27,551 bases of DNA, from IMG/VR virus record IMGVR_UViG_3300050821_001022, positions 1 through 27,551 of that record; one strand, 5' to 3'. Shown piece by piece: positions 1 to 15,889 of this stretch. Source of the stretch: a virus. The notes beneath the pieces are model-generated. The model was not told the DNA's origin and did not search any database. It worked only from the letters and a program-made list of their open reading frames with translations. The first letter of the stretch is position 1. Every line of letters starts with the position of its first letter. A program made the position numbers and the translations under genes.

Positions 1-23
1 AAGCTGCGGCTGTGTGAAAGTTG

Positions 24-37
24 ATGCAATTTTGCAT
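24..37. promoter_or_regulatory. Short palindrome upstream of first promoter
   Basis: The sequence ATGCAA-TT-TTGCAT is a perfect inverted repeat with 6-bp arms. It lies about 30 bp upstream of the -35 position of the first promoter. It could be an operator for a regulator, or the end of a terminator of an upstream gene outside the window. Only the symmetry is seen; the role is a guess. Confidence 0.3.
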
Positions 38-63
38 GCTCTGCACATGCACCCGCCTGCCTG

Positions 64-92
64 TTATCTGCGTGTCGCGGGTACGCTATACT
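64..92 (+). promoter_or_regulatory. Promoter P1 (TATACT -10)
   Basis: A -10 box TATACT lies at 87-92 with a weak -35 candidate TTATCT at 64-69 and a 17-bp spacer. The core GTACGCTATACTAG (81-94) differs by one base from the core of the second promoter at 1190-1203, which supports both as real phage promoters of one class. Transcription would start near 99-101, at the foot of the stem-loop at 101-168. It would drive the two small genes and the glycosyltransferase. Confidence 0.6.
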
Positions 93-100
93 AGGCTCAT

Positions 101-168
101 GGCAAGGTCGGGACCTATCATCCGCGTTGCATGTGCGCTGAACGATGCGCTGGACTCCCGGCCTTGTC
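101..168 (+). promoter_or_regulatory. Stem-loop leader RNA L1
   Basis: Positions 101-113 (GGCAAGGTCGGGA) pair with 156-168 (TCCCGGCCTTGTC) over 13 bp with two G-U pairs, enclosing 42 nt. Within the loop GCAT and ATGC, or CGTT and AACG, can also pair. The stem begins where transcription from the promoter at 64-92 should start, so the transcript would carry a 5'-terminal hairpin. The ribosome binding site and ATG at 191 lie beyond the stem. The role is unknown: mRNA stabilisation, a regulated leader or a separate small RNA are all possible. Confidence 0.5.
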
Positions 169-525: not shown

Positions 526-1127
526 CCGGCGGTGTGATGATCGGCTACGTCAGGCCGACGATGGTACACGGCGAGTTCATGGAGTCTGTGTTTCTGGAGG
601 CGACCAGAGCCGGGGCCGTAGTCCAGGGCAAGTACTCAGAGCCGCACGTGGACCTTGCACGCAACTGGCTGGTCGACAAGTTCCTGGCCACCGGCTACGA
701 GTGGTTTCTCTCCGTCGACACAGACATCATTCTGCCCGAACTCGTAGTCCAGAGACTGCTGGCGCGGAGACAGAAGCTCATCGGCGCACTCATCTATGTA
801 GCTGCCGATCCCATCTTTCCGCAGATATACAACAAGATCGCTGACTTCGGGGTCGGTGGCGCAGGCCAGTACATTGTCAATGACAAGTGGGAGCCAGGAG
901 AGCTGGTACAGGCAGATGCGACTGGCGCGGGATGCCTACTCATCCACCGCGAGGTGTTCGAGAAGATACCAGGCAATACACCCTACCGTTGGTTCCAGCA
1001 CGAGTTTGAGGGAACCCAGCTGTTCGGCGAGGACTTCACGTTCTGCCGTCGAGCGCGCTCAGTCGGATACCAGCTATATATCGACACCGCGGTCAAGGCC
1101 GGGCATATCAAAACCCGCGTCATCTAG
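522..1127 (+). CDS. Glycosyltransferase, GT-A fold (family 2-like)
   Basis: This 201-residue protein has the order of motifs of a compact GT-A glycosyltransferase: SVDTDIILP with a DxD metal and nucleotide-sugar site at residues 66-68, ATGAGCLLIHREVF at 133-146 (acceptor-side segment), and GEDFTFCRRAR at 169-179, whose Glu-Asp is the usual position of the catalytic base. It ends with AGHI at 193-196. It would transfer a sugar from a nucleotide donor to an unknown acceptor, such as a virion protein, phage DNA or host wall polymer. It overlaps the preceding small gene by 4 bp. It sits in its own short transcription unit ahead of the packaging genes, with no sugar-nucleotide synthesis gene beside it in the window, so the donor must come from the host or from genes elsewhere. 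Confidence 0.8.
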   Translation: MTGGVMIGYVRPTMVHGEFMESVFLEATRAGAVVQGKYSEPHVDLARNWLVDKFLATGYEWFLSVDTDIILPELVVQRLLARRQKLIGALIYVAADPIFPQIYNKIADFGVGGAGQYIVNDKWEPGELVQADATGAGCLLIHREVFEKIPGNTPYRWFQHEFEGTQLFGEDFTFCRRARSVGYQLYIDTAVKAGHIKTRVI

Positions 1128-1128
1128 G

Positions 1129-1142
1129 CGCGCGTACGCGCG
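1129..1142. promoter_or_regulatory. Perfect 14-bp CG-rich palindrome
   Basis: CGCGCGTACGCGCG begins one base after the glycosyltransferase stop (1125-1127) and is fully self-complementary, followed by another run of CGCGCG near 1146. It has no T-run, so it is not a classical terminator. It could be a protein binding site between the first operon and the promoter at 1172-1201. Function not known. Confidence 0.35.
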
Positions 1143-1171
1143 GTATCGCGCGAGGGCCATCACGCCTGGTC

Positions 1172-1201
1172 TAGACCTCGCGGACGCTCGTACGGTATAC
1201 T
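1172..1201 (+). promoter_or_regulatory. Promoter P2 of the structural operon
   Basis: TAGACC at 1172-1177 and TATACT at 1196-1201 are separated by 18 bp. The -10 region GTACGGTATACTAG matches the first promoter at 13 of 14 positions. The -35 resembles TAGACG of the promoter before the scaffold gene. Transcription should start at about 1207-1209, exactly at the foot of the 15-bp stem of the leader. It is placed to drive the packaging and head genes from 1307 onward. Confidence 0.7.
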
Positions 1202-1208
1202 AGCCGAC

Positions 1209-1288
1209 GTGCTGACCTGGTGATCTTGCCAAGTGGTCACGCTGCCCCTCACATACAGTGTGGACGCCGAGGGTCACCAGGTTAGCAC
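1209..1288 (+). promoter_or_regulatory. Structured leader RNA L2, 15-bp stem
   Basis: GTGCTGACCTGGTGA (1209-1223) pairs with TCACCAGGTTAGCAC (1274-1288) over 15 bp with a single G-U pair. The 50-nt interior can form further helices: CTT-GCC-AAG at 1225-1233, and CCCTC (1246-1250) with GAGGG (1269-1273), the latter ending next to the main stem and able to stack on it. The structure starts where the upstream promoter should begin transcription and ends 5 bases before the AGGAGG at 1294-1299 of the small terminase gene. It is either a 5' stabilising or regulatory leader, or part of a packaging recognition region, since such regions often lie near the small terminase gene. No known riboswitch class is recognised. 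Confidence 0.6.
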
Positions 1289-1306
1289 CGTACAGGAGGG
1301 AAGTTA

Positions 1307-1750
1307 ATGCCAACGCCGAGGAAGAGGCCAGCAGACCGGACGGGTGCTGGATCAGGCCACGGCGATGACCCACGTTTCATCAAGGTGACGAGCGGATCGT
1401 CATCTGGCAGAGACTTCCCAATCCCGACAGCCGATAAGGCTTGGCACCCGAAAGCTCGGAGCTGGTACAACTCGCTCCGCATTTCCGGGCAATCAGAGTT
1501 CTGGGAACCGTCCGACTGGGCAACAGCCGTCGCTGCGGCTGATGCCTACAACGTATTCCTGAGAACACACAACGCCAGTATCCTGGCGCAGTTTGTGCGT
1601 CTGAGTGAACGGCTCGGTGCTACCCTTGCCGACCGTAAGCGCAGCCGCGTAGAGTTGGTAGAGCCCGTACAAGAAGATGAGGATGAGAAGGCAGCTGATG
1701 AGGCAGTCCAAGGATGGCAAGGCCGTCTGCACTCTGTCCCATCGGCATAG
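1307..1750 (+). CDS. terS: Terminase small subunit
   Basis: This 147-residue protein would recognise phage DNA and hand it to the large terminase to start packaging. The diagnostic part is residues 45-100: AWHPKARSWYNSLRISGQ, then EFWEPSDWATAVAAADAY, a pattern common to small terminases of actinobacterial siphoviruses, followed by an amphipathic helix (ILAQFVRLSERLGATLADRKRSR) and an acidic tail. The N-terminal 40 residues are basic and Gly/Ser rich. AGGAGG at 1294-1299 with a 7-bp spacer fixes the ATG. It is the first gene after the structured leader. Unusually, three genes separate it from the large subunit. Confidence 0.85.
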   Translation: MPTPRKRPADRTGAGSGHGDDPRFIKVTSGSSSGRDFPIPTADKAWHPKARSWYNSLRISGQSEFWEPSDWATAVAAADAYNVFLRTHNASILAQFVRLSERLGATLADRKRSRVELVEPVQEDEDEKAADEAVQGWQGRLHSVPSA

Positions 1751-1767
1751 GGCAATGGGAGCACACC

Positions 1768-2082
1768 ATGACCAACTATGCGCAGAACGTACATGCTGCG
1801 ACAGGGCCGGGAACCGTTAAGCATGACGCGGGGGCGGGTAATACATTCAGGACATTCACGCTGCGTGTCTGCAGCCCTGTCCCTGACAGTGTCGTGGCTC
1901 TAGAGACGAGCCCGGATAACACCACCTGGACCGCTCGCGGAAGTGTCACCGGCGACGGCTGGATTACCGCCGCGTCAGACGTCAAGATCCGCGCAGCCCG
2001 CGCGAACGTTACTGCTCTGGGAGCAGGCGGCGCAGGCGCTCTCGGCAATGGTCTCTCTTCGATTGTTCTGTGCATCCCGTAG
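1768..2082 (+). CDS. Hypothetical virion-type protein, 104 aa
   Basis: The start at 1768 follows GGGAG with a suitable spacer; the longer frame upstream overlaps the small terminase and lacks such a site. The protein is rich in alternating Thr, Val and Ala with segments such as FTLRVCSPVPDSVVALETSPD and TTWTARGSVTGDGWITAA, which suggest a small beta-sandwich, and it ends in a Gly/Ala-rich stretch and SSIVLCIP. No membrane helix is clear. The fold impression and place next to a collagen-like gene suggest a structural or decoration protein. I do not recognise a named family. Confidence 0.6.
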   Translation: MTNYAQNVHAATGPGTVKHDAGAGNTFRTFTLRVCSPVPDSVVALETSPDNTTWTARGSVTGDGWITAASDVKIRAARANVTALGAGGAGALGNGLSSIVLCIP

Positions 2083-2135
2083 CCTTACCCATTCACGGCA
2101 AGGTCGGTTCAATTCACGCACAATTAGGAGAGACA

Positions 2136-2486
2136 ATGACTGAGGGACCTCCAGGACCAGAAGGACCTCCAGGCCCAGAGGGGCCACAAGGACCGCAAGG
2201 ACCGCCCGGAGCTACGGGCGCTACAGGGCCACAAGGCCCAAAGGGCGACACAGGCTCAGCAGGCCTGCCAGGGGAAAGCGGATCAGGTGGAGGGCTGGAA
2301 ATGAACAGCACTGGATGGTACGTCAACTGGAAGGACGGCGCAATGTCGCTCGTCGTCACATTCCAGGCGGGAGACGATGGGCTCGTGCCCATGGTCCTGG
2401 CAGAGGACAAGAAGACCATAGTCCCAGCGAGTGATCTAGGCGACTACACTCTGGAACACCCGAACGAACTGACCAGGGGTTTTTAG
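2136..2486 (+). CDS. Collagen-like repeat protein, 116 aa
   Basis: The start ATG follows AGGAGAG. Residues 4-53 are nearly perfect Gly-X-Y triplets rich in Pro, Glu, Gln and Lys (GPPGPEGPPG, GPQGPQGPPG, GPKGDTG), giving about sixteen triplets that should form a collagen-type triple helix. After a GSGGG linker, residues 55-116 form a small globular domain beginning LEMNSTGWYVNWKDGAMS. Collagen-like segments in phages occur in fibres and surface proteins, where the triple helix trimerises and projects a terminal domain. The position between the terminase genes rather than in the tail module suggests a capsid-surface or accessory fibre role, which is inference. Confidence 0.8.
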   Translation: MTEGPPGPEGPPGPEGPQGPQGPPGATGATGPQGPKGDTGSAGLPGESGSGGGLEMNSTGWYVNWKDGAMSLVVTFQAGDDGLVPMVLAEDKKTIVPASDLGDYTLEHPNELTRGF

Positions 2487-2516
2487 CCTCAACCGTTCGC
2501 AGGGAAGGGTCGAGGT

Positions 2517-2666
2517 ATGCGCTGGGGCGACAGTACCTTTGACATGGCGTGTGCGCTCGCACTGTCATGCCTATTCGTGGCTTCACTGTTCTTCGGATGG
2601 ACAATACTGCTCATCCACATGCTCATCCCGCGCGGGGCTCATCGCGTGCGCCGAGGTGTCCTATGA
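2517..2666 (+). CDS. Small single-pass membrane protein, 49 aa
   Basis: This short frame starts at ATG 2517 behind AAGGG and ends with CTATGA, overlapping the large terminase ATG at 2663 by 4 bp. The peptide has a short N-terminus (MRWGDSTFDM), a hydrophobic stretch from about residue 10 to 37 (ACALALSCLFVASLFFGWTI and on), and a basic tail RGAHRVRRGVL, a topology with the basic end in the cytoplasm. It is a convincing membrane peptide, but no family is recognised. Its coupling to the packaging ATPase is odd, since most phages have no membrane protein here. Confidence 0.6.
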   Translation: MRWGDSTFDMACALALSCLFVASLFFGWTILLIHMLIPRGAHRVRRGVL

Positions 2667-4327
2667 GACAGGACATCCAGCTGATAGCTCCGCGCGATCG
2701 TACGGTGACAATACCCGACGGTATCCCAGAGCTGACACTCGGCTGGGAGGCCATTCACTGGGCCAGCAAGTACCTGCGCCAGCCCGACGGCCAGTACACA
2801 GGTCAGCGCTGGGAGTTCATCGAGAGCCAGGTCAGGTTTATCCTGTGGTGGTATGCCCTCGATGAGAACGGGCGCTGGCTCTTCTACCATGGAGTGCGTC
2901 GTTACCCAAAAGGCGCTGGCAAGTCACCATTTGCAGCGGTGATGAGCCTGATCGAGCTACTCGCACCAGTTAGGCTCAAGGACTTTGATAATCGTGTGCT
3001 CGGAGGGTGCGTTGGACGTCCCGTTGGCATGCCCCTCGTGCAAATTGCCGCTACCAGTCATGACCAGGCAAATGTCAATACAATGCGTATGGTACGCGCA
3101 CTTCTGCCTCCCAAATCCCGCATACGTGGAGATTATGATGTCGAGACAGGTAAGACTGTGTTCCACATACCGGGTGGTGGGCAGCTCATGGTCATCACGT
3201 CAAGCCCGGTCACTGAGGAAGGCGCCCTGGTCACTTTTGCTATCCTAGACCAGACCGAGAGCTTCCTGCCCGTCAACGGTGGCAAGGCGCTGAGCGAGGT
3301 CCTCGACCGCAACGTCGGCAAGTCCGGCAGTCGACTACTGGAGACGAGCAATGCCTGGGAGCCCGGCAAGGAATCAGTGGCTGAGTCTACTTTTGATGCT
3401 TGGGTCGCTCAAGAAGAGGGACGGCTGCGCGGACGTGGCCGCATTCTTTACGACTCTCGTATGGCTCCGCCTGATACTGACTTTGAGGATGACAAGTCGA
3501 TTGAGCGAGGTGTCCAGCACGCTTACGGTGACGCCTACTGGGTCGACGTGGATGATATCGTACAGAACCGCATACTGTCTCCAAAGAACCCGCTCGATGT
3601 CTCGAAGCGGTACTATCTGAACTGGCCGGAGGCGGCCGAGGATGCATGGACTACGCAGCAGCTCTGGTCTAAGCTCGCTGATCCAGCTTTTTATATTGCT
3701 GACGGTGATGATATCACCATGGGTTTTGACGGCAGTCGCATCAATGATGCCACCGCTCTGATCGGCTGTCACATTAAGACCGGATTTACATTCAGCCTAG
3801 GCGTATGGGAGACTGATGATGGGCGACGCCCTATCCCTGTCGCGGAGGTAAACGCAGCCGTCGAGGCCGCAGCCAAGCGCTGGAACGTGTGCGCATTCTT
3901 CGCCGATGTGAACGAGTGGGAAGAGCACACCAAGATTACCTGGCGTGACCTGTTCGAGGAAGACTTGCCGGTCTGGGCGGTACCAGCCGGTCGCGACCCT
4001 CAGCCGGTAGCCTGGGACATGCGCTCTCACATCGCCGAGTTCACAATGGCCTGTGAGATGGTGCTCGGCGAGATTGAGTCGGGAACGTTCGTACACGACG
4101 GCGACAGCTTCCTCGGCCGCCATGTTATCAACGCTCGGCGTCGGCCGAACCGCTGGGGTATCAGCATCGCCAAGGAGAGCCCGAAGTCATCACGCAAGAT
4201 TGACGCGTGTGTAGCTATGATCATAGCTCGTCACGCTCGCCGACTGGTCCTGTCGAGCAAGAACTTCAAGGAGCAGAAGAAAGAGGCCGAGCGTGCTTCA
4301 AAGAGGCAAGTCTGGAGCTTCTCATGA
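2663..4327 (+). CDS. terL: Terminase large subunit
   Basis: This 554-residue protein is the packaging motor. The ATPase half shows Walker A KGAGKSP at residues 83-89 and Walker B FAILDQTE at 192-199 with the catalytic Glu at 199. The nuclease half carries three acidic residues in family order: GFDGS (Asp 356), FADVNEWEE (Asp 415) and RKIDACVAM (Asp 514). It cuts concatemers and drives DNA through the portal. The start at 2663 was preferred over an upstream in-frame ATG at 2549 because of the 4-bp overlap with the preceding membrane-protein gene and because the extra 38 residues have no family character. The stop overlaps the portal start as ATGA. Confidence 0.95.
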   Translation: MRQDIQLIAPRDRTVTIPDGIPELTLGWEAIHWASKYLRQPDGQYTGQRWEFIESQVRFILWWYALDENGRWLFYHGVRRYPKGAGKSPFAAVMSLIELLAPVRLKDFDNRVLGGCVGRPVGMPLVQIAATSHDQANVNTMRMVRALLPPKSRIRGDYDVETGKTVFHIPGGGQLMVITSSPVTEEGALVTFAILDQTESFLPVNGGKALSEVLDRNVGKSGSRLLETSNAWEPGKESVAESTFDAWVAQEEGRLRGRGRILYDSRMAPPDTDFEDDKSIERGVQHAYGDAYWVDVDDIVQNRILSPKNPLDVSKRYYLNWPEAAEDAWTTQQLWSKLADPAFYIADGDDITMGFDGSRINDATALIGCHIKTGFTFSLGVWETDDGRRPIPVAEVNAAVEAAAKRWNVCAFFADVNEWEEHTKITWRDLFEEDLPVWAVPAGRDPQPVAWDMRSHIAEFTMACEMVLGEIESGTFVHDGDSFLGRHVINARRRPNRWGISIAKESPKSSRKIDACVAMIIARHARRLVLSSKNFKEQKKEAERASKRQVWSFS

Positions 4328-5940
4328 TAGTTGATATCGCAGAGGTTGGTACCCTGGCCGAGCAGATGATGCAGCTCCGGGGCATGGAGCAGGTTCGACT
4401 TGACAAGATCGCTCGGTACATGGTGGGCAACCATGCCAAGCCGTACGCGCCCAAGGGCGTCAATGCTGAGTACCGCTGGATCATGTCGAAGGCCAAGCGC
4501 AACTTTCTGCCGCTCGTCGTTTCGGTCATCTCGGAGAACCTACACGTAGATGGCTACAAGCCGTCAGGGACGACGACCGTTGAGACAGCATCCAGTACCG
4601 ACCCTGAAGACTCTTGGAACGTGTTCCGCGCCAACCGGATGATATCCCGCCAGCACGGCGTTCACCGGTCTGTCAGCAAGTACGGGTCTGCGTACATAGT
4701 GGTGCTGCCCGGCGAGATGGCGCGGGACGAAGAGCTAGAGGCTGACAATGTACCGGTTATGCGTCCGGTCAGCCCGCGTCGAATGACGGCCTTCTATGCT
4801 GACGACGTTGACGACGAGTGGCCCCAGGTAGCGATCGAGGCGCGGGTCACAGGTAATCCGATGCGGCCGAGTGAACAGCGCGTGATAGTAACGCTGTACG
4901 ACGACATGATGCGATACATCCTGGTCAGCAAGCAGAGCGGCATCGTGACGAACGTTTCTCATCTCAGCCTCCAGATGGCCGATCCCAATGACCCGTACCT
5001 CAACGGTGTGAGCCCGATCATGAATCACGGGCTTGGTATCTGCCCGGTGGTCCGGTTCCTTTATGAGGCCGACCTCGACGGCGAGACTGACTGCTCAGGC
5101 GAGGTCGAGCCGCTCATCCCGGTCCAGGACCAGATCAACGCTACTACGTTTAACCTGATGATGGCCGAGCAGTATCAAGCGTTCAAGCAGCGCTGGGTCA
5201 CGGGCATGGCGCCGTCTGACGAGTCAGGACGCCCCAAGATTCCGTTCCAGCCAGGCGTCGATCGTGTCTGGGCGGCCGAGGACCCGACCAGCAAGTTCGG
5301 TGAGTTCAATGAGACGCATCTGCAGCCGTACATCGACAGTCGCGAGGCTGGTATCCGGCACATGTCTACTATCTCGCAGGTGCCGCCGTATCACCTCCTT
5401 GGGCAGATTGCGAACCTGTCGGCAGAAGCGCTGGCCGCCGCGCGGGATGGTCTAGACCGGAAGGTCGAGGAACTACAGGCCATTCTGACCGACCCCTGGC
5501 GGAACAGCTTCCGGCTCAACGCTCTCGCCTCTGGCGACAAGAAGGGCTGGAATGACCTCAACGGCGAGGTCGTCTGGCGAGACACTAGCGCGAGGGCATT
5601 CAGCGCCACGATCGACGGGCTCGGCAAGGCTGCCCAGATGCTCGGTATCCCGGTTGAAGAGCTATGGCGACTCATCCCTGGCGCGACCGCCGATGACGTC
5701 ACGTCCTGGGTACGCGCGAAGCAGGAGTACCAGGCCAAGGATGTTGTCAAGGACGCCGTGGCCGCAGCCATGCAGTCTCAGCCTCAGTACTCCAGTCTCA
5801 CATCGAACGTTGCCGGCACTGGGGTCGAGGCAACCGTGCCCGTTCAGATACCGGCCGGGACTCAGGGCGACATCACCAAGACGACCGGCTCGCGGTCGGC
5901 CCGGCCAGCTACTGGTGGCGGAGGCGTGAATGTCCATTAA
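4324..5940 (+). CDS. Portal protein
   Basis: This 538-residue protein is a portal of the SPP1 gp6-like type found in actinophages. It forms the dodecameric ring at the unique capsid vertex through which DNA enters and leaves. Recognisable parts are the N-terminal helix NHAKPYAPKGVNAEYRW, the wing segment VVSVISENLHVDGYK near residue 70, the clip and stem region around VPVQDQINATTFNLMMAEQ near residue 265, and the SQVPPYHLLGQIANLSAEAL segment near residue 355. The C-terminus is Gly and Thr rich. ATGA overlap with the large terminase selects the start at 4324. The end overlaps the MuF gene by 11 bp. Confidence 0.93.
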   Translation: MIVDIAEVGTLAEQMMQLRGMEQVRLDKIARYMVGNHAKPYAPKGVNAEYRWIMSKAKRNFLPLVVSVISENLHVDGYKPSGTTTVETASSTDPEDSWNVFRANRMISRQHGVHRSVSKYGSAYIVVLPGEMARDEELEADNVPVMRPVSPRRMTAFYADDVDDEWPQVAIEARVTGNPMRPSEQRVIVTLYDDMMRYILVSKQSGIVTNVSHLSLQMADPNDPYLNGVSPIMNHGLGICPVVRFLYEADLDGETDCSGEVEPLIPVQDQINATTFNLMMAEQYQAFKQRWVTGMAPSDESGRPKIPFQPGVDRVWAAEDPTSKFGEFNETHLQPYIDSREAGIRHMSTISQVPPYHLLGQIANLSAEALAAARDGLDRKVEELQAILTDPWRNSFRLNALASGDKKGWNDLNGEVVWRDTSARAFSATIDGLGKAAQMLGIPVEELWRLIPGATADDVTSWVRAKQEYQAKDVVKDAVAAAMQSQPQYSSLTSNVAGTGVEATVPVQIPAGTQGDITKTTGSRSARPATGGGGVNVH

Positions 5941-6835
5941 CCAAGACACGACCTTCGACCGGAAGCCGCAAACCGACCGGGACGCGATTAGAGGTCGCGA
6001 AAAGCCGGACCCTGGGACGACTAGCCGGAACCCTAGTTCAAGAGCCCCTAGAGCGCGCCGGTTTATATTCACTGGCACGTCGGGTCCTCTCGCGGCTATC
6101 GCGCCGAACCCTCCACGGGCGCTTCATGCACATCATCAGAGCCATCAGGGTGCCCTCGGCGAATACGTCAAGAACTCCATCCGGGCGATGTGGGATGCGC
6201 ATATCGACCCGGAGCGGTTCTCAGCGAGCTGGAAGGACATGGGGCCGATCCTCAAGATACTGATTGCTCAGGCCTACGCTGGATCGGCCGCTAACGCTGC
6301 TGAGTATTACCGCAACCTACATGTTGTCCATGGCCTCGACTTCCCGGTCGTACGGACAGCACCGTTCAATGCTCAGCATCTCCACCGGATGACGGGCTCC
6401 GTAGCAAACGGAACCTTCTACCATCATCTGAACACGAAGGGAGAGGAACCGGGCAGAGCATCGGAGGTAGCGCGCAACACCCTCTCTGGCGCTGGTGCCC
6501 GGTTCGCCCTGAACGGCGCACGGAATACAGTGACTGCGGCCGTAGCTCGCGACCCGCTCGCGACGGGCTGGGAAAGGCTGCTTAGTCCGACCGCGTGTTC
6601 GTATTGCGCAGCACAGGCTGCGAAGGGACCATTCAAGTCCGGCAATACCAGCTTCCGCGCTCACGACTACTGTAGCTGTCTGGCTAAGCCGGTGTTGCGC
6701 GGAGTGAGCGATGAGAGCCCGAATGCGGGACTGCGAGATGAGTGGAACCGTATAACAGAGACATTCACCGGCAAGGAAGCGAGAGCTGCCTGGGATCAAT
6801 ACTGGAGAGAACATGGCAACGACACCAGTTCATGA
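5930..6835 (+). CDS. MuF-like minor head protein
   Basis: The 301-residue product has a variable, basic and Pro-rich N-terminus (residues 1-60), a helical region, and a C-terminal MuF-type domain. The domain is marked by SPTACSYCAAQAAKG near residue 220 and FRAHDYCSCLAKP near residue 243; the paired Cys and His residues suggest metal binding. MuF proteins sit inside the head near the portal and are injected or needed for head assembly. In actinophages this gene is sometimes labelled capsid maturation protease, but no clear protease catalytic set is seen here. The start follows GGAGGC. It overlaps the portal by 11 bp and the next gene by 23 bp. Confidence 0.85.
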   Translation: MSINQDTTFDRKPQTDRDAIRGREKPDPGTTSRNPSSRAPRARRFIFTGTSGPLAAIAPNPPRALHAHHQSHQGALGEYVKNSIRAMWDAHIDPERFSASWKDMGPILKILIAQAYAGSAANAAEYYRNLHVVHGLDFPVVRTAPFNAQHLHRMTGSVANGTFYHHLNTKGEEPGRASEVARNTLSGAGARFALNGARNTVTAAVARDPLATGWERLLSPTACSYCAAQAAKGPFKSGNTSFRAHDYCSCLAKPVLRGVSDESPNAGLRDEWNRITETFTGKEARAAWDQYWREHGNDTSS

Positions 6836-7073
6836 GACGGCAGCCGGGCGAAAGGCAGCGGCCAGCAAGGGCGCAGCACTGCCCAGCAAGAGCGGTGGGG
6901 CTCCGCGCTACCCGACGCCTAACGTGGCGTACCTCAAGAAGGCAATCCGCGCTGTCGGACGTGGCAAGGGCGATCACTCGGTGATCAGGCGCTACCTGAT
7001 CAGGCGTGCTAACGCCCTGAACGCGCGGAACCTCATCCCAGACAACTGGAACTCAGACGGGAGTACAAGCTAG
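6813..7073 (+). CDS. Small basic phage protein, 86 aa
   Basis: A GGAGAG motif just before ATG 6813 supports the start despite the 23-bp overlap with the MuF gene. The N-terminus is Ala, Lys and Ser rich and flexible. The C-terminal half carries a recurring phage motif: YLKKAIRAVGRGKG, then HSVIRRYLIRRANALNA and LIPDNWNSDG. This motif commonly closes head protease or MuF-region proteins in actinophages. Here it stands as its own gene directly after MuF, which hints at an ancestral fusion or split. The role is not known; it is probably a small head-associated protein. Confidence 0.7.
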   Translation: MATTPVHETAAGRKAAASKGAALPSKSGGAPRYPTPNVAYLKKAIRAVGRGKGDHSVIRRYLIRRANALNARNLIPDNWNSDGSTS

Positions 7074-7249
7074 TGGCCGGAACAACGAGTAAGAAGGCAA
7101 AGGCCAAGCAGGCCGACGACGCAGAAGACCAGAACGACAAGGGCGACGACGAGGATCAAGAGCAGGAGGACGACAGCAACAAGTCCGACGCGCAGAAGCG
7201 TGAGGACGCATTCCGAGAGATGGTCGCAAAGAAGCGAGGCAAGAAGTAA
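7073..7249 (+). CDS. Highly charged small protein, 58 aa
   Basis: A GTG at 7073 shares one base with the previous TAG, and the TAA shares one base with the next ATG. The product is almost entirely charged or polar: a Lys-rich start (TSKKAKAKQ), an acidic core (DDAEDQNDKGDDEDQEQEDD) and a basic end (AKKRGKK). It is likely disordered. Such peptides beside portal and MuF genes may bind DNA or assembly intermediates. The tight one-base overlaps on both sides are the best evidence that it is translated. No family recognised. Confidence 0.6.
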   Translation: MAGTTSKKAKAKQADDAEDQNDKGDDEDQEQEDDSNKSDAQKREDAFREMVAKKRGKK

Positions 7250-7503
7250 TGGCAAACGTAGGCGAGAGGTACGCATTCGGTCATGCGGACGGCCTTGGCT
7301 TCGGCGAGCTGGCCAAGGGCGAGCCCCTGACCGCAGAGATGAGGGAACTTGACCTCAAGGATGGACAAGAGGTCACCCTGATCGCATTCGATGAGGACTC
7401 AGAATGGCCCATCATCGAGTGGACCGACGGAACCGGTATCAACCGTATCACAACGGTTGAACCAGACATATTCGACAGCACCTTCCAGCTAGTGGAGGCA
7501 TGA
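7249..7503 (+). CDS. Small acidic hypothetical protein, 84 aa
   Basis: The ATG shares one base with the stop of the preceding gene. The sequence looks like a small beta-barrel: LDLKDGQEVTLIAFDED, SEWPIIEWTDGTGINRITTV, then a C-terminal FDSTFQLVEA. This pattern resembles a compact SH3-like or OB-like fold, but the assignment is only by appearance. It ends in ATGATG, coupling to the next gene. No membrane segment or catalytic motif is visible. Confidence 0.65.
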   Translation: MANVGERYAFGHADGLGFGELAKGEPLTAEMRELDLKDGQEVTLIAFDEDSEWPIIEWTDGTGINRITTVEPDIFDSTFQLVEA

Positions 7504-7967
7504 TGACTCTCCTATCAGCCGGCCAGCTCATGCAGTACGCGCAGCAGCAGGCCCTCAACGCAGTGTTCCTGAAGGCCCAGAGCCCTGCCGTAGCTGCGAC
7601 CTACCTGGCGCTGTCAAGCGCAGCGACCTCGGGTGTGCTCAACTCGACCGAGGTGCTCATGTCCGGGGCCAGTATCAATGAGCTGCCTACCGCGAGCGCG
7701 TACGCGCGTCAGGCGTATGGCCCCGTGGCCGCTACTGGCGCGAGCCCTTCGGTCATCTACAACACATCCCTGATCACTTGGGGACCGTTCACGTCCGCGC
7801 CAGGCACGGCCAACTGGGGCATTGCTACCGACGCGGTGTCTGGTGGCGCTGCTCATCCCATCGCAGCATTCCTACTCGCGTCGTCGCGTACCCCGGCAAT
7901 CGGAGACAGCCTCCAGGCTGCTGCTGGTACTGGCAGCGCGGGTGTGGGCTTCCTCTGCCAGGTGTGA
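7500..7967 (+). CDS. Phage fibre-like structural protein, 155 aa
   Basis: Two adjacent ATG codons (7500 and 7503) are possible; GGAGG at 7494-7498 favours 7503 by spacing. The protein follows the pattern of a common phage surface or fibre family: an N-terminal helix (AQQQALNAVFLKAQSPAVAA) and TYLALSSAATS, then YARQAYGPVAATGASPSVIYN, ITWGPFTSAPGTANWGIATDA, and a final GDSLQAAAGTGSAGVGFLCQV. The pattern predicts a beta-sandwich with a subunit-binding helix. It begins a cassette of such proteins placed in the head module, so a head fibre or decoration role is as likely as a tail fibre role. Confidence 0.65.
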   Translation: MMTLLSAGQLMQYAQQQALNAVFLKAQSPAVAATYLALSSAATSGVLNSTEVLMSGASINELPTASAYARQAYGPVAATGASPSVIYNTSLITWGPFTSAPGTANWGIATDAVSGGAAHPIAAFLLASSRTPAIGDSLQAAAGTGSAGVGFLCQV

Positions 7968-7968
7968 C

Positions 7969-8250
7969 ATGACAATCTTTACGATCAGCCCGGTTGTTCC
8001 AGACCTCAAGGTAGTGCGGGCGTATCCGTGTAGCGCTATCGTGGACGTGGGCGTCGAGTGTGGAGCCACTCCGGCGGCCTTGTACCAGAGGTACTGTGGC
8101 GTAGTCGGGCATGACCGGAAGATATGGCTATGTCCTATACACGCGACGATCGCGGCCTGCGGTGGCGCCATCTGTCAGGAGTGCGCTAAAGCAGGCGGCG
8201 TTGTTCCTGTCGTCCTAACCCTGCTATCGGAACCGATGAGGTTTACGTAA
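7969..8250 (+). CDS. Cys-rich, probable zinc-binding protein, 93 aa
   Basis: The 93-residue product has eight Cys. The C-terminal half reads RYCGVVGHD, then IWLCPIHATIAACGGAICQECAKAG, a set of CxxH and CxxC pairs suited to one or two zinc sites. The N-terminal half has two further Cys (YPCSAIVDVGVEC). Zinc-binding proteins are unusual between virion fibre genes and could be a structural knob, a chaperone or a regulator. The start ATG lies one base after the previous stop and follows AGGTG. The end shares one base with the next ATG. No named family is recognised. Confidence 0.65.
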   Translation: MTIFTISPVVPDLKVVRAYPCSAIVDVGVECGATPAALYQRYCGVVGHDRKIWLCPIHATIAACGGAICQECAKAGGVVPVVLTLLSEPMRFT

Positions 8251-8684
8251 TGGCTCTATATGACGTCGCGTGGACGGTGACTGGAGTTTCCGCATCCGCG
8301 CTATTCTGGCTCAGGAGCACAGCGGGCAAGGATATGCGCTTGTTCGAGATGGGTGTGTTCCTTGAATCGGGAACAGCGGCTGCCTCGGTTGTCGGCCTGG
8401 GACGACCGGCAGCTGTCTCGGTTACGCCTACCGCACTAACGCCGCAGCCGCAGGACACGTCGGCTGCTGCTGCTGCTTGCATGGGAGCTGTCGCGGCAAC
8501 GACCAAGCCGACATCCCCGGCTAACTTCATGAGACGGTTCGGTATGCCTGCTACCCTAGGCGCGGGTATCGTCTGGAGCTGGGGTAGAGGACTGGTTATC
8601 CCGTCCGGGCCTGCCGAGCTTGTGGTCTGGAACATAGGTGCGTCAACTTCCGTGTTTGGCGGGTATGCTACTTACGAGGAGTAA
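8250..8684 (+). CDS. Virion surface or fibre-type protein, 144 aa
   Basis: The start follows GAGG at a good distance and overlaps the previous stop by one base. Segments such as ALFWLRSTAGKDMRLFEMGVF and the end pattern GRGLVIPSGPAELVVWNIGASTSVFGGYATYEE are typical of small phage beta-sandwich proteins found beside head or fibre genes in actinophages. The middle is Ala, Thr and Pro rich. It sits directly before the long repeat protein with a one-base overlap, so the two are probably made in fixed proportion, perhaps as cap or adaptor and shaft. That pairing is inference. Confidence 0.65.
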   Translation: MALYDVAWTVTGVSASALFWLRSTAGKDMRLFEMGVFLESGTAAASVVGLGRPAAVSVTPTALTPQPQDTSAAAAACMGAVAATTKPTSPANFMRRFGMPATLGAGIVWSWGRGLVIPSGPAELVVWNIGASTSVFGGYATYEE

Positions 8685-10795
8685 TGGCACAGGACCCGTA
8701 CCAGGTCACTCCGGCCGGTAAGCCCTGGGGCAACACCGTGCCGGGATTCGGCACACGTCCTGCCATTGCCGTAACTCCCCCGCCTAGTATTCTTGCCGAG
8801 ATTCAGCCGCTATCGCATTCATACCCAGGTGTTATCACAGACGACCAGATAGTACCATTCCCGGCGTCCTGGGGCGTTCTGCCAGTGCTTCCGGTATGGC
8901 TGCCCGGTCAGGAGCTTGACGGCCTAGCGGTTAGCACATCATCCGCGACCGGCTCGCTCGGGCGAACCGCCGTCATATCAGGCTCTAGCGCTTCATCATC
9001 ATCCGCGACCGGTGCCATCACTACTACGATGCGCATTGCGGGCTCCGCGTCGAGCACATCGACCGCTACGGGCTCCATCAGTGCGCTTGGTTCGATCAAC
9101 GGCTCGGCCTCGACTACCTCGTCGGCGTCAGGCACAGTTGTACGCATAGGCGTCATTTCAGGCACCGCGCTTTCTGCTTCGTCAGCGTTCGGCACCATTT
9201 CTGGTCTCGGCGGCATTAACGGTTTCGCCACAACGACCTCGGCCGCGTCAGGAACGATAGCCCAGATACTTGCCTGCGCGGGGTCAGGCGCATCCTCCTC
9301 ATCTGCTACCGGTGCATTTACAGCTGCTGCCATATCTGGTTACTCGTCTACTGCGTCATCCGCAGCGGGCTCAGTAGTGTTGATCGGCGCGGTGGCGGGT
9401 TCGTCCGTCACAATGAGTACAGCCTCCGGGTCTGTGTCTCGGTTCTCTCCGATGGCTGGGCAATCCGCCACCGCGTCCCAGGCTAACGGTGCCGTGGTTT
9501 TGATCGGTTCCGTATCGGGTACGTCCTCGACCGCGACCACCGCGTCAGGTTCCCTCGGCACGCTTTCTCCAATCAGTGGGACCGCCACCACGGTTAGCGC
9601 TGCCTCAGGCGCGGTGGTCGCTATACTTGTTCTGTCAGGTTCGTCCGCTACCGCGTCCTCTGCTACTGGGGCAATTGGCGGAGAGGACATAGTATCTGGC
9701 TCGGCCTCGACCGCATCTGCTGCATCTGGCTCTATTACTATGACCCTGGCCTGCGCGGGGTCGTCCTCCACAACCTCCACCGCGTCAGGCACCCTCGGCA
9801 GACTGTCGCCCGTTGCGGGTTCTTCTGCCGCAATCAGCTCTGCGTCTGGCGCGGTGGTTATTCATGTAGGGGCTATCACTTATGATGTGAATGGCGTAGC
9901 CTCTACGCAGAGCGCCGCGAATGGAACCGTGTCCCTCTTCGCGGCTCTGGCTGGCATGTCAGTTAGTGCGTCGGCAGCGACCGGCGCGTTGACGCGTTTG
10001 GGCGTGCTAGCCGGCAGTGCGGTCTCGGCCAGTGGTGCTACGGGCTCCATCCAACTGGTCGGGGCTGTCACTGGTATGGCCACCTCGGCCAGTGTTGCTG
10101 CGGGCTCCATTATGCTGGCCGGGGTGGTCGCCGGTGTTTCGGCCACGTCGAGCAAGGGAGACGGCTGGCTAGCTGGTGGACCGATGTCGGGCTCGGCATC
10201 GACGCAATCGAGTGCTACCGGTTGGTTGGGGCTTGAGGCTGCAATCTCCGGGACCAGCGCCACAGCTAGCCAGGGCTCTGGCGATGTTACTATAGTTGGC
10301 AAGCCGCCTCTGACTATTGCAGGCTTCTCAGCTACCGTGTCGACGGCAAGCGGCGCGGTCGTATCGGTTATGATGCTCTCCGGTACGGCTTTTAACGCGT
10401 CCTCGGCGTCCGGTAGTATAAGTTCCCAGGGAGCGCTCTCAGGGACCTCCCGCGCGGTATCGGTAGGCTTGGGTGGGGTCGTCCTCGTGATGAGCGTGTC
10501 CGGTAGCGCGGAGACGGATAGCAGCGCTGATGGTTATCTGGCCGGGCTTGAAGTAATCACCGGACTGGCGCTATCTCAGAGTCAAGCGAGTGGCTGGATA
10601 GGCTTGCCGTTTGTGGCGGGTTCGCTGCCCGAAGAGGTCACGGCTATCGTTTGGGTTAGTAATGAGCTTGGCGCGGAGCTAAGCGTGAACGTGCTCTCGG
10701 CGTCGGTCGTAGCAGACAGTGTCGTTGCGGCGGTTGAGTCCGATACAGCCGCCGCTACTATCGAAACTAACGAAATATCTGCAGAGGTGACATAA
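8684..10795 (+). CDS. 28-repeat shaft-like protein, 703 aa
   Basis: After an N-terminal 80-residue region (Pro-rich, with SWGVLPVLPVWLPGQELDG before the repeats), residues 81-646 consist of 28 tandem units of about 20 residues with the pattern SxSATASSATGSVxLIGxxSG. Four units have small insertions or one-residue deletions. The C-terminal 57 residues (SLPEEVTAIVWVSNELGAEL and on) form a separate end domain with alternating Val, Ala and Glu. The composition is extremely rich in Ser, Ala, Thr and Gly with one hydrophobic strand per unit, which fits a beta-solenoid or other fibrous shaft. It lies between MuF and the scaffold, so it may be a head fibre. It contains no catalytic motif. GAGGAG lies just before the start. 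Confidence 0.85.
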   Translation: MAQDPYQVTPAGKPWGNTVPGFGTRPAIAVTPPPSILAEIQPLSHSYPGVITDDQIVPFPASWGVLPVLPVWLPGQELDGLAVSTSSATGSLGRTAVISGSSASSSSATGAITTTMRIAGSASSTSTATGSISALGSINGSASTTSSASGTVVRIGVISGTALSASSAFGTISGLGGINGFATTTSAASGTIAQILACAGSGASSSSATGAFTAAAISGYSSTASSAAGSVVLIGAVAGSSVTMSTASGSVSRFSPMAGQSATASQANGAVVLIGSVSGTSSTATTASGSLGTLSPISGTATTVSAASGAVVAILVLSGSSATASSATGAIGGEDIVSGSASTASAASGSITMTLACAGSSSTTSTASGTLGRLSPVAGSSAAISSASGAVVIHVGAITYDVNGVASTQSAANGTVSLFAALAGMSVSASAATGALTRLGVLAGSAVSASGATGSIQLVGAVTGMATSASVAAGSIMLAGVVAGVSATSSKGDGWLAGGPMSGSASTQSSATGWLGLEAAISGTSATASQGSGDVTIVGKPPLTIAGFSATVSTASGAVVSVMMLSGTAFNASSASGSISSQGALSGTSRAVSVGLGGVVLVMSVSGSAETDSSADGYLAGLEVITGLALSQSQASGWIGLPFVAGSLPEEVTAIVWVSNELGAELSVNVLSASVVADSVVAAVESDTAAATIETNEISAEVT
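8924..10621 (+). repeat. 28 tandem 20-codon repeats
   Basis: The repeat block encodes 28 consecutive units of mostly 20 codons (60 bp), each ending in a Gly, usually SG, AG, NG or TG. Units are similar in protein pattern but use clearly different codons, so the DNA copies are not identical. Examples are SSASSSSATGAITTTMRIAG and SASTTSSASGTVVRIGVISG. Longer units occur at unit 16 and unit 23, where five and four residues are inserted. Confidence 0.85.
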
Positions 10796-11121
10796 TGGAC
10801 ATGATAGCGCTGTTCTTCAAGCAGGGAGACGACATCGTCGTGACCGCGCGGTTCCCTGAGATATCAGACGGCACGGGCATGACGGCTACATTCTATGTCA
10901 AGGATGACAAGACGATACCTGACACTGATCCAGAAGTGATCAAGTACGATAGCGAAGTGCTAGACGACCCCGACAACTTGGGCGCTACGCTCTCCACGTT
11001 TGCCATCCCGTCTGCTGACACCCAGGTGACTGGAGCCTGGTGGTGGAAGGTCAGGGTCTTCGACCCGTTCGACAACGTGAGGACCGCTAGCCAGGGTCCT
11101 CTGCTCATCGAGGCGGTGTGA
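10795..11121 (+). CDS. Ig-like minor structural protein, 108 aa
   Basis: The ATG shares one base with the stop of the repeat protein and follows GAGGTG. The protein reads as a single immunoglobulin-like beta-sandwich: FFKQGDDIVVTARFPE, MTATFYVKDDKTI, STFAIPSADTQVTGAWWWK and RVFDPFDNVRTASQGPLLIEAV. The same pattern occurs in phage baseplate-upper or fibre-associated proteins of Gram-positive phages. Its tight coupling to the 703-residue protein suggests it joins or caps that shaft. No catalytic residues are evident. Confidence 0.65.
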   Translation: MDMIALFFKQGDDIVVTARFPEISDGTGMTATFYVKDDKTIPDTDPEVIKYDSEVLDDPDNLGATLSTFAIPSADTQVTGAWWWKVRVFDPFDNVRTASQGPLLIEAV

Positions 11122-11122
11122 C

Positions 11123-11359
11123 ATGGTAGCTGGGCGCGAAGCGTCGGCACAGGACGTAGAGGATACAGAACGGCTTATGCGGTACTGGGCCGAGGGGCCA
11201 GGCGCGGCCAAGATCGGCTGGGGTACGAAGGACGACTTCTACAGGTGCGAGGCGCTTCTCAGCAAGTACGTGAGCCAGGAGATAGTCAAGGGCCTGTGCT
11301 CGAATCTACATCAGCGCGCGACCGGGTTCAGGCCTGGTCATGCACCCTCGGAGCAGTAG
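11123..11359 (+). CDS. Conserved-type actinophage small protein, 78 aa
   Basis: The 78-residue product contains LMRYWAEGPGAAKIGWGTKDDFYRCEALLSKYV and CSNLHQRATGFRPGHAP (split here by other residues). The pattern, with a W-G-T-x-x-D-F-x-R-C core followed by an N-L-H and a PGHAP end, recurs as a small protein or protein domain near head genes in actinophages. Its biochemical role is unknown. It is the last gene before the promoter at 11398-11426, so it ends the fibre-like cassette. Confidence 0.7.
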   Translation: MVAGREASAQDVEDTERLMRYWAEGPGAAKIGWGTKDDFYRCEALLSKYVSQEIVKGLCSNLHQRATGFRPGHAPSEQ

Positions 11360-11397
11360 ACAACGCTGCCCCGTATATAGAGCGTCCGCGACGGGAC

Positions 11398-11426
11398 TAG
11401 ACGAAACGACGCGGATCAGCTATAAT
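11398..11426 (+). promoter_or_regulatory. Promoter P3 upstream of scaffold and capsid
   Basis: TAGACG at 11398-11403 and a perfect TATAAT at 11421-11426 are separated by 17 bp. The start of transcription would lie near 11433, giving a very short leader before the AAGGA (11437-11441) and ATG at 11448. It lies in an 88-bp gap between coding regions. It is the best -10 box in the window and is well placed to boost scaffold, capsid and tail tube synthesis. Confidence 0.75.
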
Positions 11427-11447
11427 CTACGCGAGCAAGGAATGGGA

Positions 11448-12083
11448 ATGAGCGAATCTGCAGTTGAAGGACTAGCTGGCGACACCGGAGTGGTCGACCC
11501 CACCGGCGGTGCTGACTCCACGCAAGAAGGCCATCCTGAAGACCAGGCGGCCGAAGAGCAGCTTCACGAGGTCATGCAGCAGCAGGACCCTGATGAGCTG
11601 AACAAGGAGCTAGCACGCTGGAAGAAGTTGGCCCAGCGGCACGAAAAGACCGCACGGGATAACTCTGCCGCTGCCAAGAACTGGCGCGAGCAGCAGGATG
11701 CCAACAAGTCCGAGCTGGAGAGGGCACAAGAGGCCCGGATAGCTGCTGAACAAGAGCGAGACGCCTTGGCGACTCAGCAGAACCGGATGCTCGCTGCCGC
11801 CGCGAATGACCTGTCACCCGACCTGATCGAGTACCTCGGTGATGGAACCGCTGAGGAGATTGGCGATCGGGCAGCAACGCTGTCAAGGCTCATTGAGGAA
11901 GAAATCACCAGTCGCATTGAGGCGCGGTCTAAGCAGCCTACTGGCACCAACAACGGACGCCCTACTGTCCGTGGTCAGGCTCCAGTCGGTACGATGCGGA
12001 CCGGGTCATCACCCGCCACTGGCGTCAGCCTTACGGGTCCTGAACAGTTGTTCCGGCAGCTCGTCCACGGAGACGACAGTTAG
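11448..12083 (+). CDS. Capsid scaffolding protein
   Basis: The ATG at 11448 is preferred to the one at 11442 because AAGGA at 11437-11441 is six bases upstream of it and would abut the other. The 211-residue protein has an acidic, disordered N-terminus (residues 1-50), a long charged coiled coil from about 50 to 110 (ELNKELARWKKLAQRHEKTA and RAQEARIAAEQERDALATQ), a short folded part with LSPDLIEYLGDGTAEEI, and a flexible C-terminus ending in PEQLFRQLVHGDDS. Order, length and location immediately before the major capsid gene fit a scaffold that organises capsid subunits and is then lost. Confidence 0.85.
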   Translation: MSESAVEGLAGDTGVVDPTGGADSTQEGHPEDQAAEEQLHEVMQQQDPDELNKELARWKKLAQRHEKTARDNSAAAKNWREQQDANKSELERAQEARIAAEQERDALATQQNRMLAAAANDLSPDLIEYLGDGTAEEIGDRAATLSRLIEEEITSRIEARSKQPTGTNNGRPTVRGQAPVGTMRTGSSPATGVSLTGPEQLFRQLVHGDDS

Positions 12084-12104
12084 CGCGAGCGCCAAGCAGT
12101 AACG

Positions 12105-12118
12105 CCGCGTCCGCGCGG
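12105..12118 (+). promoter_or_regulatory. GC hairpin in capsid gene leader
   Basis: CCGCG-TCCG-CGCGG forms a compact 5-bp GC stem with a four-base loop in the 46-bp space between scaffold and capsid genes. It overlaps the start of the GGAAAG ribosome binding site region (12117-12122). It may block exonucleases from the scaffold side or set the amount of capsid translation. No T-run follows, so it is not a classical terminator. Confidence 0.4.
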
Positions 12119-12129
12119 AAAGAGCACCC

Positions 12130-13365
12130 ATGCCCACGTACAACACCCATGTCGGGCGTACTACGACGGGCTCGGACCCGCTTGTTCCTGAGCCGCTGGC
12201 GACAGCTATCATTCAGGAAGCCCCCAAGGCTAGCGCGGCGCTGAGCTTGATGGCGAGTACGCCCCTATCCTCCAAGACCCAGCGCATGCCGGTCCTGGAC
12301 GTTCTGCCCGTCGCCTACTGGGTTGGCGGCGACACCGGCATGAAGCAGACGACCATGCAGCAGTGGAAGAACGTTGTGCTGGTGGTCGAAGAGATCGCCT
12401 GCATCGTTCCCATCCCTGAGGCATATCTGGACGACGCGGATGTCCCGCTCTGGGGCCAGGTCCAGCCGCGTATCACAGAGGCTGTCGGACAGCTGATCGA
12501 CCTCGCCGTCCTCTGGGGCATCAACAAGCCGTCCACCTGGGGCGAGGCTGTCTTCCCCGGTGCGGCCAAGTCCCAGCACTTCGTCGTCCAGGGTACTGGC
12601 GTCGACCTCGGCCAGGACGTGACCAAGCTCGGCGCGATGATGGCGACGACCGGCTACACCGTCAACGGCTTCGCGGCCATGCCGGGTACGAGCTGGAACC
12701 TCGCCGGTCTGCGTTCCGCGCAGGGCGTCCCGATCTATCAGCCGGACATGACCGGTCGGCCGGGCGGAGTCCTGTACGGCTACGGCATGAACGAGATCAA
12801 CAACGGCTCGTGGCAGATGGGGCTCGGCGGCGCGGTTATGCTCGCCGGGGACTTCACCAAGGCCATGATCGGTATCCGGCGCGACATCAGCTTCAAGATG
12901 TTCACCGAGGGCGTCATCTCCAACGACTCCGGCCAGGTCATCCTGAACCTGATGCAGCAGGACACGGTCGCCATGCGTATGACGATGCGTCTCGCGTACG
13001 CGACGGTCAACCCGGTCACGATCATGGAGCCGACCAAGCCAATGACCGGTACTCCCCCGCCCAACAACCGTTGGCCGTTCGGCGCGATCCTTCCTGTCGG
13101 CGCGACCCCGCCAGCAGCCGCAGCGATCAGCGTCATCCAGGCCCCGCCGTACCCGTATGTCGGCAGCTATGCCGTCGAGGGCGCGGCGTCCGAGGTGGAC
13201 CTGGACAACGAGCAGGAGACGGACGCCATGCTCGCCCAGCGCGAGTACGCGGAGCAGGTCGAGTCCGAGGCGCGCGAGGGTCTGGAGACCGCAGCCCACC
13301 GTCGCCAGGAGCGCACGCGTCCCGCGCGCAGGGCCGCAACCAGGGAGCGCGACAACAAGGAGTAG
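12130..13365 (+). CDS. Major capsid protein (HK97 fold)
   Basis: This 411-residue protein follows the scaffold and shows the pattern of HK97-fold major capsid proteins of actinophages: an N-terminal arm with PLVPEPLATAIIQEAPKASA, the extended-loop and strand region MPVLDVLPVAYWVGGDTGMK, NVVLVVEEIACIVPIPEAYL, then the long spine helix QVQPRITEAVGQLIDLAVLW. Later segments GGVLYGYGMNEINNGSW and MRMTMRLAYATVNPV belong to the axial and peripheral domains. From about residue 351 it carries an extra charged, helical tail of 60 residues (DNEQETDAML, then Arg-rich to the end). Codon choice is strikingly biased to G or C in third position. GGAAAG precedes the ATG. Confidence 0.93.
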   Translation: MPTYNTHVGRTTTGSDPLVPEPLATAIIQEAPKASAALSLMASTPLSSKTQRMPVLDVLPVAYWVGGDTGMKQTTMQQWKNVVLVVEEIACIVPIPEAYLDDADVPLWGQVQPRITEAVGQLIDLAVLWGINKPSTWGEAVFPGAAKSQHFVVQGTGVDLGQDVTKLGAMMATTGYTVNGFAAMPGTSWNLAGLRSAQGVPIYQPDMTGRPGGVLYGYGMNEINNGSWQMGLGGAVMLAGDFTKAMIGIRRDISFKMFTEGVISNDSGQVILNLMQQDTVAMRMTMRLAYATVNPVTIMEPTKPMTGTPPPNNRWPFGAILPVGATPPAAAAISVIQAPPYPYVGSYAVEGAASEVDLDNEQETDAMLAQREYAEQVESEAREGLETAAHRRQERTRPARRAATRERDNKE

Positions 13366-13368
13366 TCG

Positions 13369-14055
13369 GTGATCTATCCGACTGATGGTTCGCTACCCAG
13401 CTTGGCTGATCCAGATGCGATTATAGCCAGGCTGGGTAGGAACCTGAACCAGGTTGAGGCAGCGCGTGTCGACGCTATGCTCAAGGATGGTAGCGCTATC
13501 ATCCGCAGGCGAGCGCGGAACACGTTCATCTATGAGGCAACAGACACCATTACCATGGCTGCGCCTGATGGTCTCATCGTCCTGCCCGGACGACCGATAT
13601 ACCAGGTCATTACGGTCATAGCTCGGGCGGGCGTCGGGTCAATACCAAGCATCCCGATAACCTGGTTCATCTTCGACGGCGTGGACACCGTCACCATACC
13701 GGAGCCGCGCTATTCCGGCATCATCAACCTACCTACGTTCTGGTACAATGCGGCGTGGTACAGCCACTCGTACGACATAGAATACGAGCACGGCTACCGC
13801 AATGTACCGGCAGACATCGAGGGCCTTCTGTGCTCTGCGATCATATCGGAGTTGTCGACTCCAACGATGTCGGCTACCCTTCAGAGTGAATCTATCGGTG
13901 CGTATAGCTATAGCATGCGGAGAAGCTATAGCGGGGGTGGTACAGGGGGCGGAGCAATGGCCGGGCTTTACGCGGCACTTCGCGACTTCGGCATGGACGA
14001 GATACTAGGGGACTACAGATTCAAGGTGGGATCAATAGCAGTTAGGCGTAGTTGA
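13369..14055 (+). CDS. Head-tail connector (gp6-like adaptor), 228 aa
   Basis: GTG at 13369 with AGGAG six bases upstream starts this 228-residue protein. The helical N-terminus (LADPDAIIARLGRNLNQVEAARVDAMLKDG), basic segment IIRRRARNTF, DGLIVLPGRPIYQV and the later YDIEYEHGYRNVPADIEGLL and ISELSTP are typical of adaptor proteins that bind below the portal. The C-terminus has SESIGAYSYSMRRSYSG and a long Gly-rich insert. Order directly after the capsid gene agrees. A 15-bp hairpin lies within the first 25 codons. Confidence 0.85.
   Translation: MIYPTDGSLPSLADPDAIIARLGRNLNQVEAARVDAMLKDGSAIIRRRARNTFIYEATDTITMAAPDGLIVLPGRPIYQVITVIARAGVGSIPSIPITWFIFDGVDTVTIPEPRYSGIINLPTFWYNAAWYSHSYDIEYEHGYRNVPADIEGLLCSAIISELSTPTMSATLQSESIGAYSYSMRRSYSGGGTGGGAMAGLYAALRDFGMDEILGDYRFKVGSIAVRRS
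13393..13439 (+). promoter_or_regulatory. 15-bp hairpin downstream of capsid gene
   Basis: CTACCCAGCTTGGCT (13393-13407) pairs with AGCCAGGCTGGGTAG (13425-13439) over 15 bp with one U-G pair and a 17-nt loop. It lies 28 bp after the capsid stop and inside the start of the connector gene. No T-run follows. A stable structure here could protect the 3' end of capsid mRNA or slow ribosomes and lower connector yield relative to capsid. Confidence 0.55.
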
Positions 14056-14402
14056 TGTTTCCAGCGCTACCGCATGGTCAGTACGTGACGCTTCGGCATC
14101 GCGTAGTAGCAGGTCAGGACGAATACAACAACGATACCTACTCATTCACCGAGGTGAAGGTCGGACCCTGTTCAGTCCAGCAAACTACCAGCCGGGAGGC
14201 AGTGAACTTCACAGATCAAGTAGCAACGAACATCCTCGTGTTCGTGCCCTACGGAACGGATGTCGGTTATCTCGACGCTATGATAGTCGACGGCGTTGAG
14301 TACGAAGTAATAGGCGAACCAGACCGATGGATGTCCCCGTTCTCTGGGCATACGTCCCCGATCCGCGTCAGCGGACAGATCGTGAAGGGAGCATCGCCGT
14401 GA
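14055..14402 (+). CDS. Head closure / stopper protein, 115 aa
   Basis: The ATG at 14055 shares its first base with the previous TGA. The 115-residue protein begins MFPALPHGQYVTLRHRVVAG and continues through VGPCSVQQTTSREAVNFTDQ, VFVPYGTDVGYLDAMIVDG and YEVIGEPDRWMSPFSG, matching the beta-rich head-closure family (SPP1 gp16-like) that seals the portal and offers a surface to the tail. Size and place, between adaptor and gp10-like protein, agree. Confidence 0.83.
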   Translation: MFPALPHGQYVTLRHRVVAGQDEYNNDTYSFTEVKVGPCSVQQTTSREAVNFTDQVATNILVFVPYGTDVGYLDAMIVDGVEYEVIGEPDRWMSPFSGHTSPIRVSGQIVKGASP

Positions 14403-14725: not shown

Positions 14726-14726
14726 C

Positions 14727-15140: not shown

Positions 15141-15148
15141 GAGAGGCA

Positions 15149-15871: not shown

Positions 15872-15889
15872 TAGGCAGGAGAGCCCGCC

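Follow-up and report, generated by a model that had tools for sequence, protein, structure and literature searches.

Leader and promoter of the late operon

The window, i.e. the whole analysed stretch of 27,551 nucleotides (IMG/VR record IMGVR_UViG_3300050821_001022), contains a late (structural) operon whose first gene is terS. It is preceded by a promoter, a long hairpin and a Shine-Dalgarno (SD) sequence (Table 1). Just upstream of this leader, at 522-1127, lies a glycosyltransferase-like gene with a weak, below-cutoff match to Anp1, and a collagen-like repeat protein (PF01391) is encoded between terS and TerL at 2136-2486.

Table 1. Features at the start of the late operon (window coordinates)
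Feature	Position	Strand	Basis or remark
GC-rich partial palindrome GGCGCGCGTACGCGCGGTATCGCGCGAGGG	1127..1156	.	candidate activator site
-35 region CTAGACC	1171..1177	+	CTAGAC kept in relatives
-10 region TATACT, inside conserved TACGGTATACT	1196..1201	+	kept in relatives
Inferred transcription start	1207..1209	+	spacing taken from leaderless promoter (TATACT 87-92, ATG 99)
P1 stem, 5' arm	1209..1227	+	double-sided changes in 16/17 aligned pairs
P1 stem, 3' arm	1270..1288	+	fold and aligned relatives
Conserved loop strand CCAAGTGGTCACGCTGCCCC	1229..1248	+	mostly retained in L005, L013, L014 and L016, with changed arms
P2 inner hairpin, 5' strand CACGCTG	1238..1244	+	fold; native versus re-paired halves, p 0.001
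Apical loop with CCCC	1245..1255	+	C-rich in most relatives
P2 inner hairpin, 3' strand CAGTGTG	1256..1262	+	fold; re-pairing test
Shine-Dalgarno AGGAGGG	1294..1300	+	outside P1; the predicted fold keeps it free of the leader hairpin
terS, first gene of the operon	1307..1750	+	ATG 1307; Pfam PF25673 Terminase_7, E 4e-26

The sequence-only reading had placed a promoter TAGACC-N18-TATACT before the leader, and direct reading of the window gave exactly these coordinates and a spacer of 18 nt. The general form CTAGMC-N17-19-TAKAMT has 2 matches in the window where 0.01 are expected, and a promoter of this type is kept 5' of the leader in the relatives. The palindrome upstream of it is possibly an activator binding site; nearly all relatives have a similar GCGCG..CGCGC ahead of their promoter, among them L022 and L026, which have no hairpin. 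A second promoter, CTAGAC-N17-TATAAT, is located within the structural operon at 11397-11426, before a gene starting near 11449. In a 70-kb twin contig, a CTAGAC promoter precedes a nuclease-like gene (28357; L198 1070-1124, opposite strand), which by eye looks like a nuclease of the RecB/Cas4 type. A hairpin of the leader kind was found neither after the promoter at 11397-11426 nor at that of the twin contig.

The left-end promoter (window 81-101) has TATACT at 87-92 and an ATG at 99, and almost every relative shows its 7-nt spacing; we read it as giving a leaderless mRNA. Applying this -10-to-ATG spacing to the late promoter puts its start at 1208-1209, so that the late transcript very probably begins at the base of the long stem. 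Another stem after the left-end promoter (101-113/156-168) was discarded, as it lies inside the leaderless ORF, folds weakly (z -0.5) and is not kept in relatives.

The leader stem had been described as 15 bp with one G-U (1209-1223/1274-1288), enclosing 50 nt. This is exact on direct reading, but the stem is longer than that and comprises 19 bp (1209-1227/1270-1288), here called P1. The fold of 1205-1320 has a z of -2.8, with 1 of 200 shuffles equally good, and the best-stem score of 42.5 was matched by none of 2000 dinucleotide shuffles. Indeed, P1 is the best stem in the 27.5-kb window, where no other 105-nt stretch equals its score. Two more helices had been proposed within the 50 nt. The predicted fold contains both, as P2 and a short 3-bp helix outside it, but they form one irregular arm instead of a multi-branch layout, and the leader is multi-helix only in the modest sense of P1 plus one inner hairpin. 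The gap between stem and AGGAGG is five bases as claimed (1289-1293, AGGAGG at 1294-1299), and the predicted fold leaves the first gene's SD open immediately 3' of the stem. An intrinsic terminator or attenuator was rejected: the stem is followed by CGTACAGGAGGG instead of a U run and is absent from the terminator-like sites.

Conservation of the folded RNA

With the complete TerL at 2549-4327 as query, 80 related loci were obtained from IMG/VR, and further loci were collected via TerS and the upstream glycosyltransferase-like gene until no new leaders turned up. The same promoter type and the hairpin were found upstream of terS in about 20 related loci from other metagenomes. Their arms diverge strongly (GTGCTGACCTGGTGA in the window versus GTGATCCGGCGGCT in L013), whereas the loop strand CCAAGTGGTCACGYTGYCCC is nearly identical, the inner hairpin being marked by a conserved strand GGTCACGYTG and a C-rich apical loop.

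Paired changes in related phages, which had been suggested as a check of the stem, were indeed abundant. In an alignment of 16 distinct sequences (A2), 90.3% of the P1 cells form standard pairs, and double-sided changes with pairing kept occur in 16 of the 17 P1 pairs, a result equalled by none of 500 shuffles. Sliding one arm by 1-3 columns reduced pairing to 22-44%; as these slid controls retain the sequence relatedness, common descent alone is not sufficient to account for P1 pairing. G.U occurs 17 times against 5 for A.C, and this excess argues that selection favours the transcribed plus strand and not a DNA palindrome. The covariation thus indicates that it is the folded plus-strand RNA, rather than the DNA sequence of the arms, which is maintained by selection. 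As MAFFT failed to register the 3' strands of P2, this helix was tested by re-pairing halves, and native halves paired better than swapped ones (p 0.001).

These observations also bear on the suggestion that the leader is a packaging-linked element. The leader precedes terS, as a packaging or cos-related DNA element might, but its arms vary freely while pairing stays, and the G.U bias points to RNA. In addition, the starts of more than ten contigs coincide at the homologue of window position ~7, most plausibly because the genome has its physical left end (cos) there, so that the leader lies 1.2 kb inside from the probable cos. A packaging function is hardly credible on these grounds. After the contig-start point, a conserved block TGATGCAATTTTGCATGC (window 1-60) probably comprises the cos end and a candidate terminase-binding region. 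With the packaging RNA of phi29 (Rfam phage_pRNA) the leader has in common that it is a structured phage RNA encoded near packaging genes, but it gave no Rfam match, is part of an mRNA and belongs to a phage with TerS/TerL.

Two leader forms and a proposed stabilising role

In seven loci, including the window, the stem starts no more than a few bases from the inferred transcript start, and in 13 other loci an extension of 20-79 nt precedes it. A near-perfect SD (SD-like GGAGG) is present at +3 to +32, counted from inferred starts, in 12 of the 13 extended leaders, whose summed anti-SD energy is -185 vs -107 (0/500). Either a stem or an SD is therefore found at the transcript 5' end, as placed by the inferred starts, in the seven loci and in 12 of the 13 others. 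Most of the 5' SDs have no start codon at suitable spacing, which speaks against a leader-peptide attenuator. Short frames do exist in some leaders, e.g. ATGCACGATGCTTCGTTCTGA in L011, but no frame is shared, most element lengths are not divisible by three and stop codons occur at any position, making this explanation highly improbable.

Between the -10 region and the stem lie anywhere from about 3 to 83 nt. In most loci of both forms, by contrast, 14-22 nt separate the 3' end of the stem from the first start codon, and this distance is unchanged in L005, where a different small gene replaces terS as the first gene. Exceptions are L030 and L047, where the stem is farther from the start codon, and L056, where a different short ORF follows; in all three, the glycosyltransferase-like gene is found downstream of terS and not upstream of the leader. 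Because the position of the hairpin tracks the ribosome-binding site of the first gene, with its SD open, a post-transcriptional role fits better than antitermination or attenuation.

The best explanation, in which our confidence falls just short of even, is that the late operon has a cis-acting 5' leader RNA which influences mRNA stability and ribosome loading, probably together with a bound factor. P1 would protect the long late mRNA from attack at its 5' end and hold a strong ribosome-binding site alongside, resulting in a long-lived mRNA and efficient ribosome loading. In the extended form, the second SD-like GGAGG near the 5' end would block attack likewise by binding a ribosome. The conserved P2 strand and the C-rich apical loop might constitute a binding site through which a phage or host protein tunes the leader.

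There are precedents for both designs: aprE mRNA is stabilised by a 5' stem-loop together with ribosome binding, SP82 and cry mRNAs by a 5' polypurine or STAB-SD, and mycobacterial katG mRNA by a polypurine (PMC7509114, PMC2358910). What the leader shares with the Bacillus aprE leader, the polypurine leader of phage SP82, the cry STAB-SD and the E. coli ompA 5' stem is a 5'-terminal stem-loop beside a strong SD, or else an SD at the 5' end that serves no ORF. It differs from these stabilisers in its conserved inner loop sequence, in the presence of both designs in one family and in its position before the late operon of a probable actinophage. As a plain stabiliser needs no conserved loop sequence, part of the leader function is left unexplained, and the conserved loop suggests a bound protein. 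Also counting against the stabiliser explanation, L022 and L026 do without the hairpin, and L030 and L047 have the stem at a greater distance from the start codon.

A bound protein could also repress. At a translational operator, a structural or packaging protein would bind P2 and the loop and repress translation of the first gene in a feedback, which would suit a sequence-conserved loop on a variable stem beside an open SD. Complementarity between the apical loop and the SD is slightly above that of swapped pairs (p 0.026), but it is weak and sterically doubtful across an arm of ~25 bp, and in L005 the operon does not begin with terS. We consider an operator unlikely. A pseudoknot of the CCCC loop with the SD was rejected, as swapping partners gave no better than this p of 0.026 and the pairing is weak in several loci.

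The conserved loop would also suit processive antitermination like that of HK022 put, in which a folded leader binds RNA polymerase and would here carry it through terminators of the late operon. The leader is situated where a long operon starts, or close to it, and stays there even when another gene is first. Put RNAs measure ~70 nt, and putL is found a short way 3' of its promoter (PMC9378689). Both kinds are cis leader RNAs of 70-90 nt, encoded by a phage promoter and ahead of a long operon. However, put is defined by two adjacent stem-loops (PMC9378689), and the leader consists of one long stem with an inner hairpin, before a late instead of an early operon. Furthermore, antitermination has no need for the fixed start-codon spacing, and terminator-like sites in 1100-20900 are not in excess (10 vs 9.8 expected), which makes it rather unlikely. 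More doubtful is a put-like control RNA that would make up a new class among phage RNAs and has no counterpart known in actinophages; its P2/CCCC loop would bind RNA polymerase or a phage protein and commit the late operon to full-length expression. Finally, the near-perfect stem of 12-19 bp with its inner helix is a plausible substrate for RNase III, and processing could define where the mature late mRNA begins, but this would leave the conserved loop unexplained, and lengths and internal loops vary; we regard it as very unlikely.

The two interchangeable 5' designs (stem or ribosome-binding site) on one conserved hairpin provide a natural test of late phage mRNA survival, and the conserved loop hints at an RNA-binding factor. 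Among double-stranded DNA phages, leader RNAs whose structure is backed by covariation are, to our knowledge, rare.

In the subclade of L017, L019 and L020 (and L021) the loop is diverged, and a CCTCC right after the stem can base-pair with the first gene's SD. There, an upstream AGGAGG could compete for the CCTCC and thereby possibly form a switch.

Distribution of the leader

With the covariance model, each phage yielded a single element, located where the operon starts, and the score was 59 bits on the plus strand versus 25 on the minus strand. No match to Rfam 15 (riboswitches, T-box, pRNA and others) was obtained at gathering score in the window, or up to E 1 in 8 relatives. Together with the covariation, this bears out the proposal of a structured operon leader outside the known families. 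No description of such a leader was found in the papers available to the literature searches.

Searches of annotated phages with the leader DNA returned nothing related, and the covariance model gave no credible match in the cultured phages Juicebox, Poushou, Nergal, MalagasyRose, Aaronocolus and Werner or in prophage TerL neighbourhoods, all chosen for related terminases. A match in a bacterial genome (L203) lies within a membrane-protein gene and was judged to be due to chance, three extra matches from an exact loop-motif scan of viral contigs all lack the stem, and no convincing second copy exists in the 70-kb twin contig. The leader family thus seems to be limited to one group of uncultured phages.

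In the TerL tree, all carriers fall into one clade (support 99/99). The sequence-only reading held that homologous phages should be able to form the stem at this location; this is true of the ~20 relatives, but L022 and L026 keep the promoter and have lost the hairpin. Both belong to the L022/L023/L026 subclade, which implies one loss. TerL relatives are found in phages of Corynebacterium, Mycobacterium and other actinobacteria as well as in actinobacterial genomes, so that the host group is probably the Actinomycetota.
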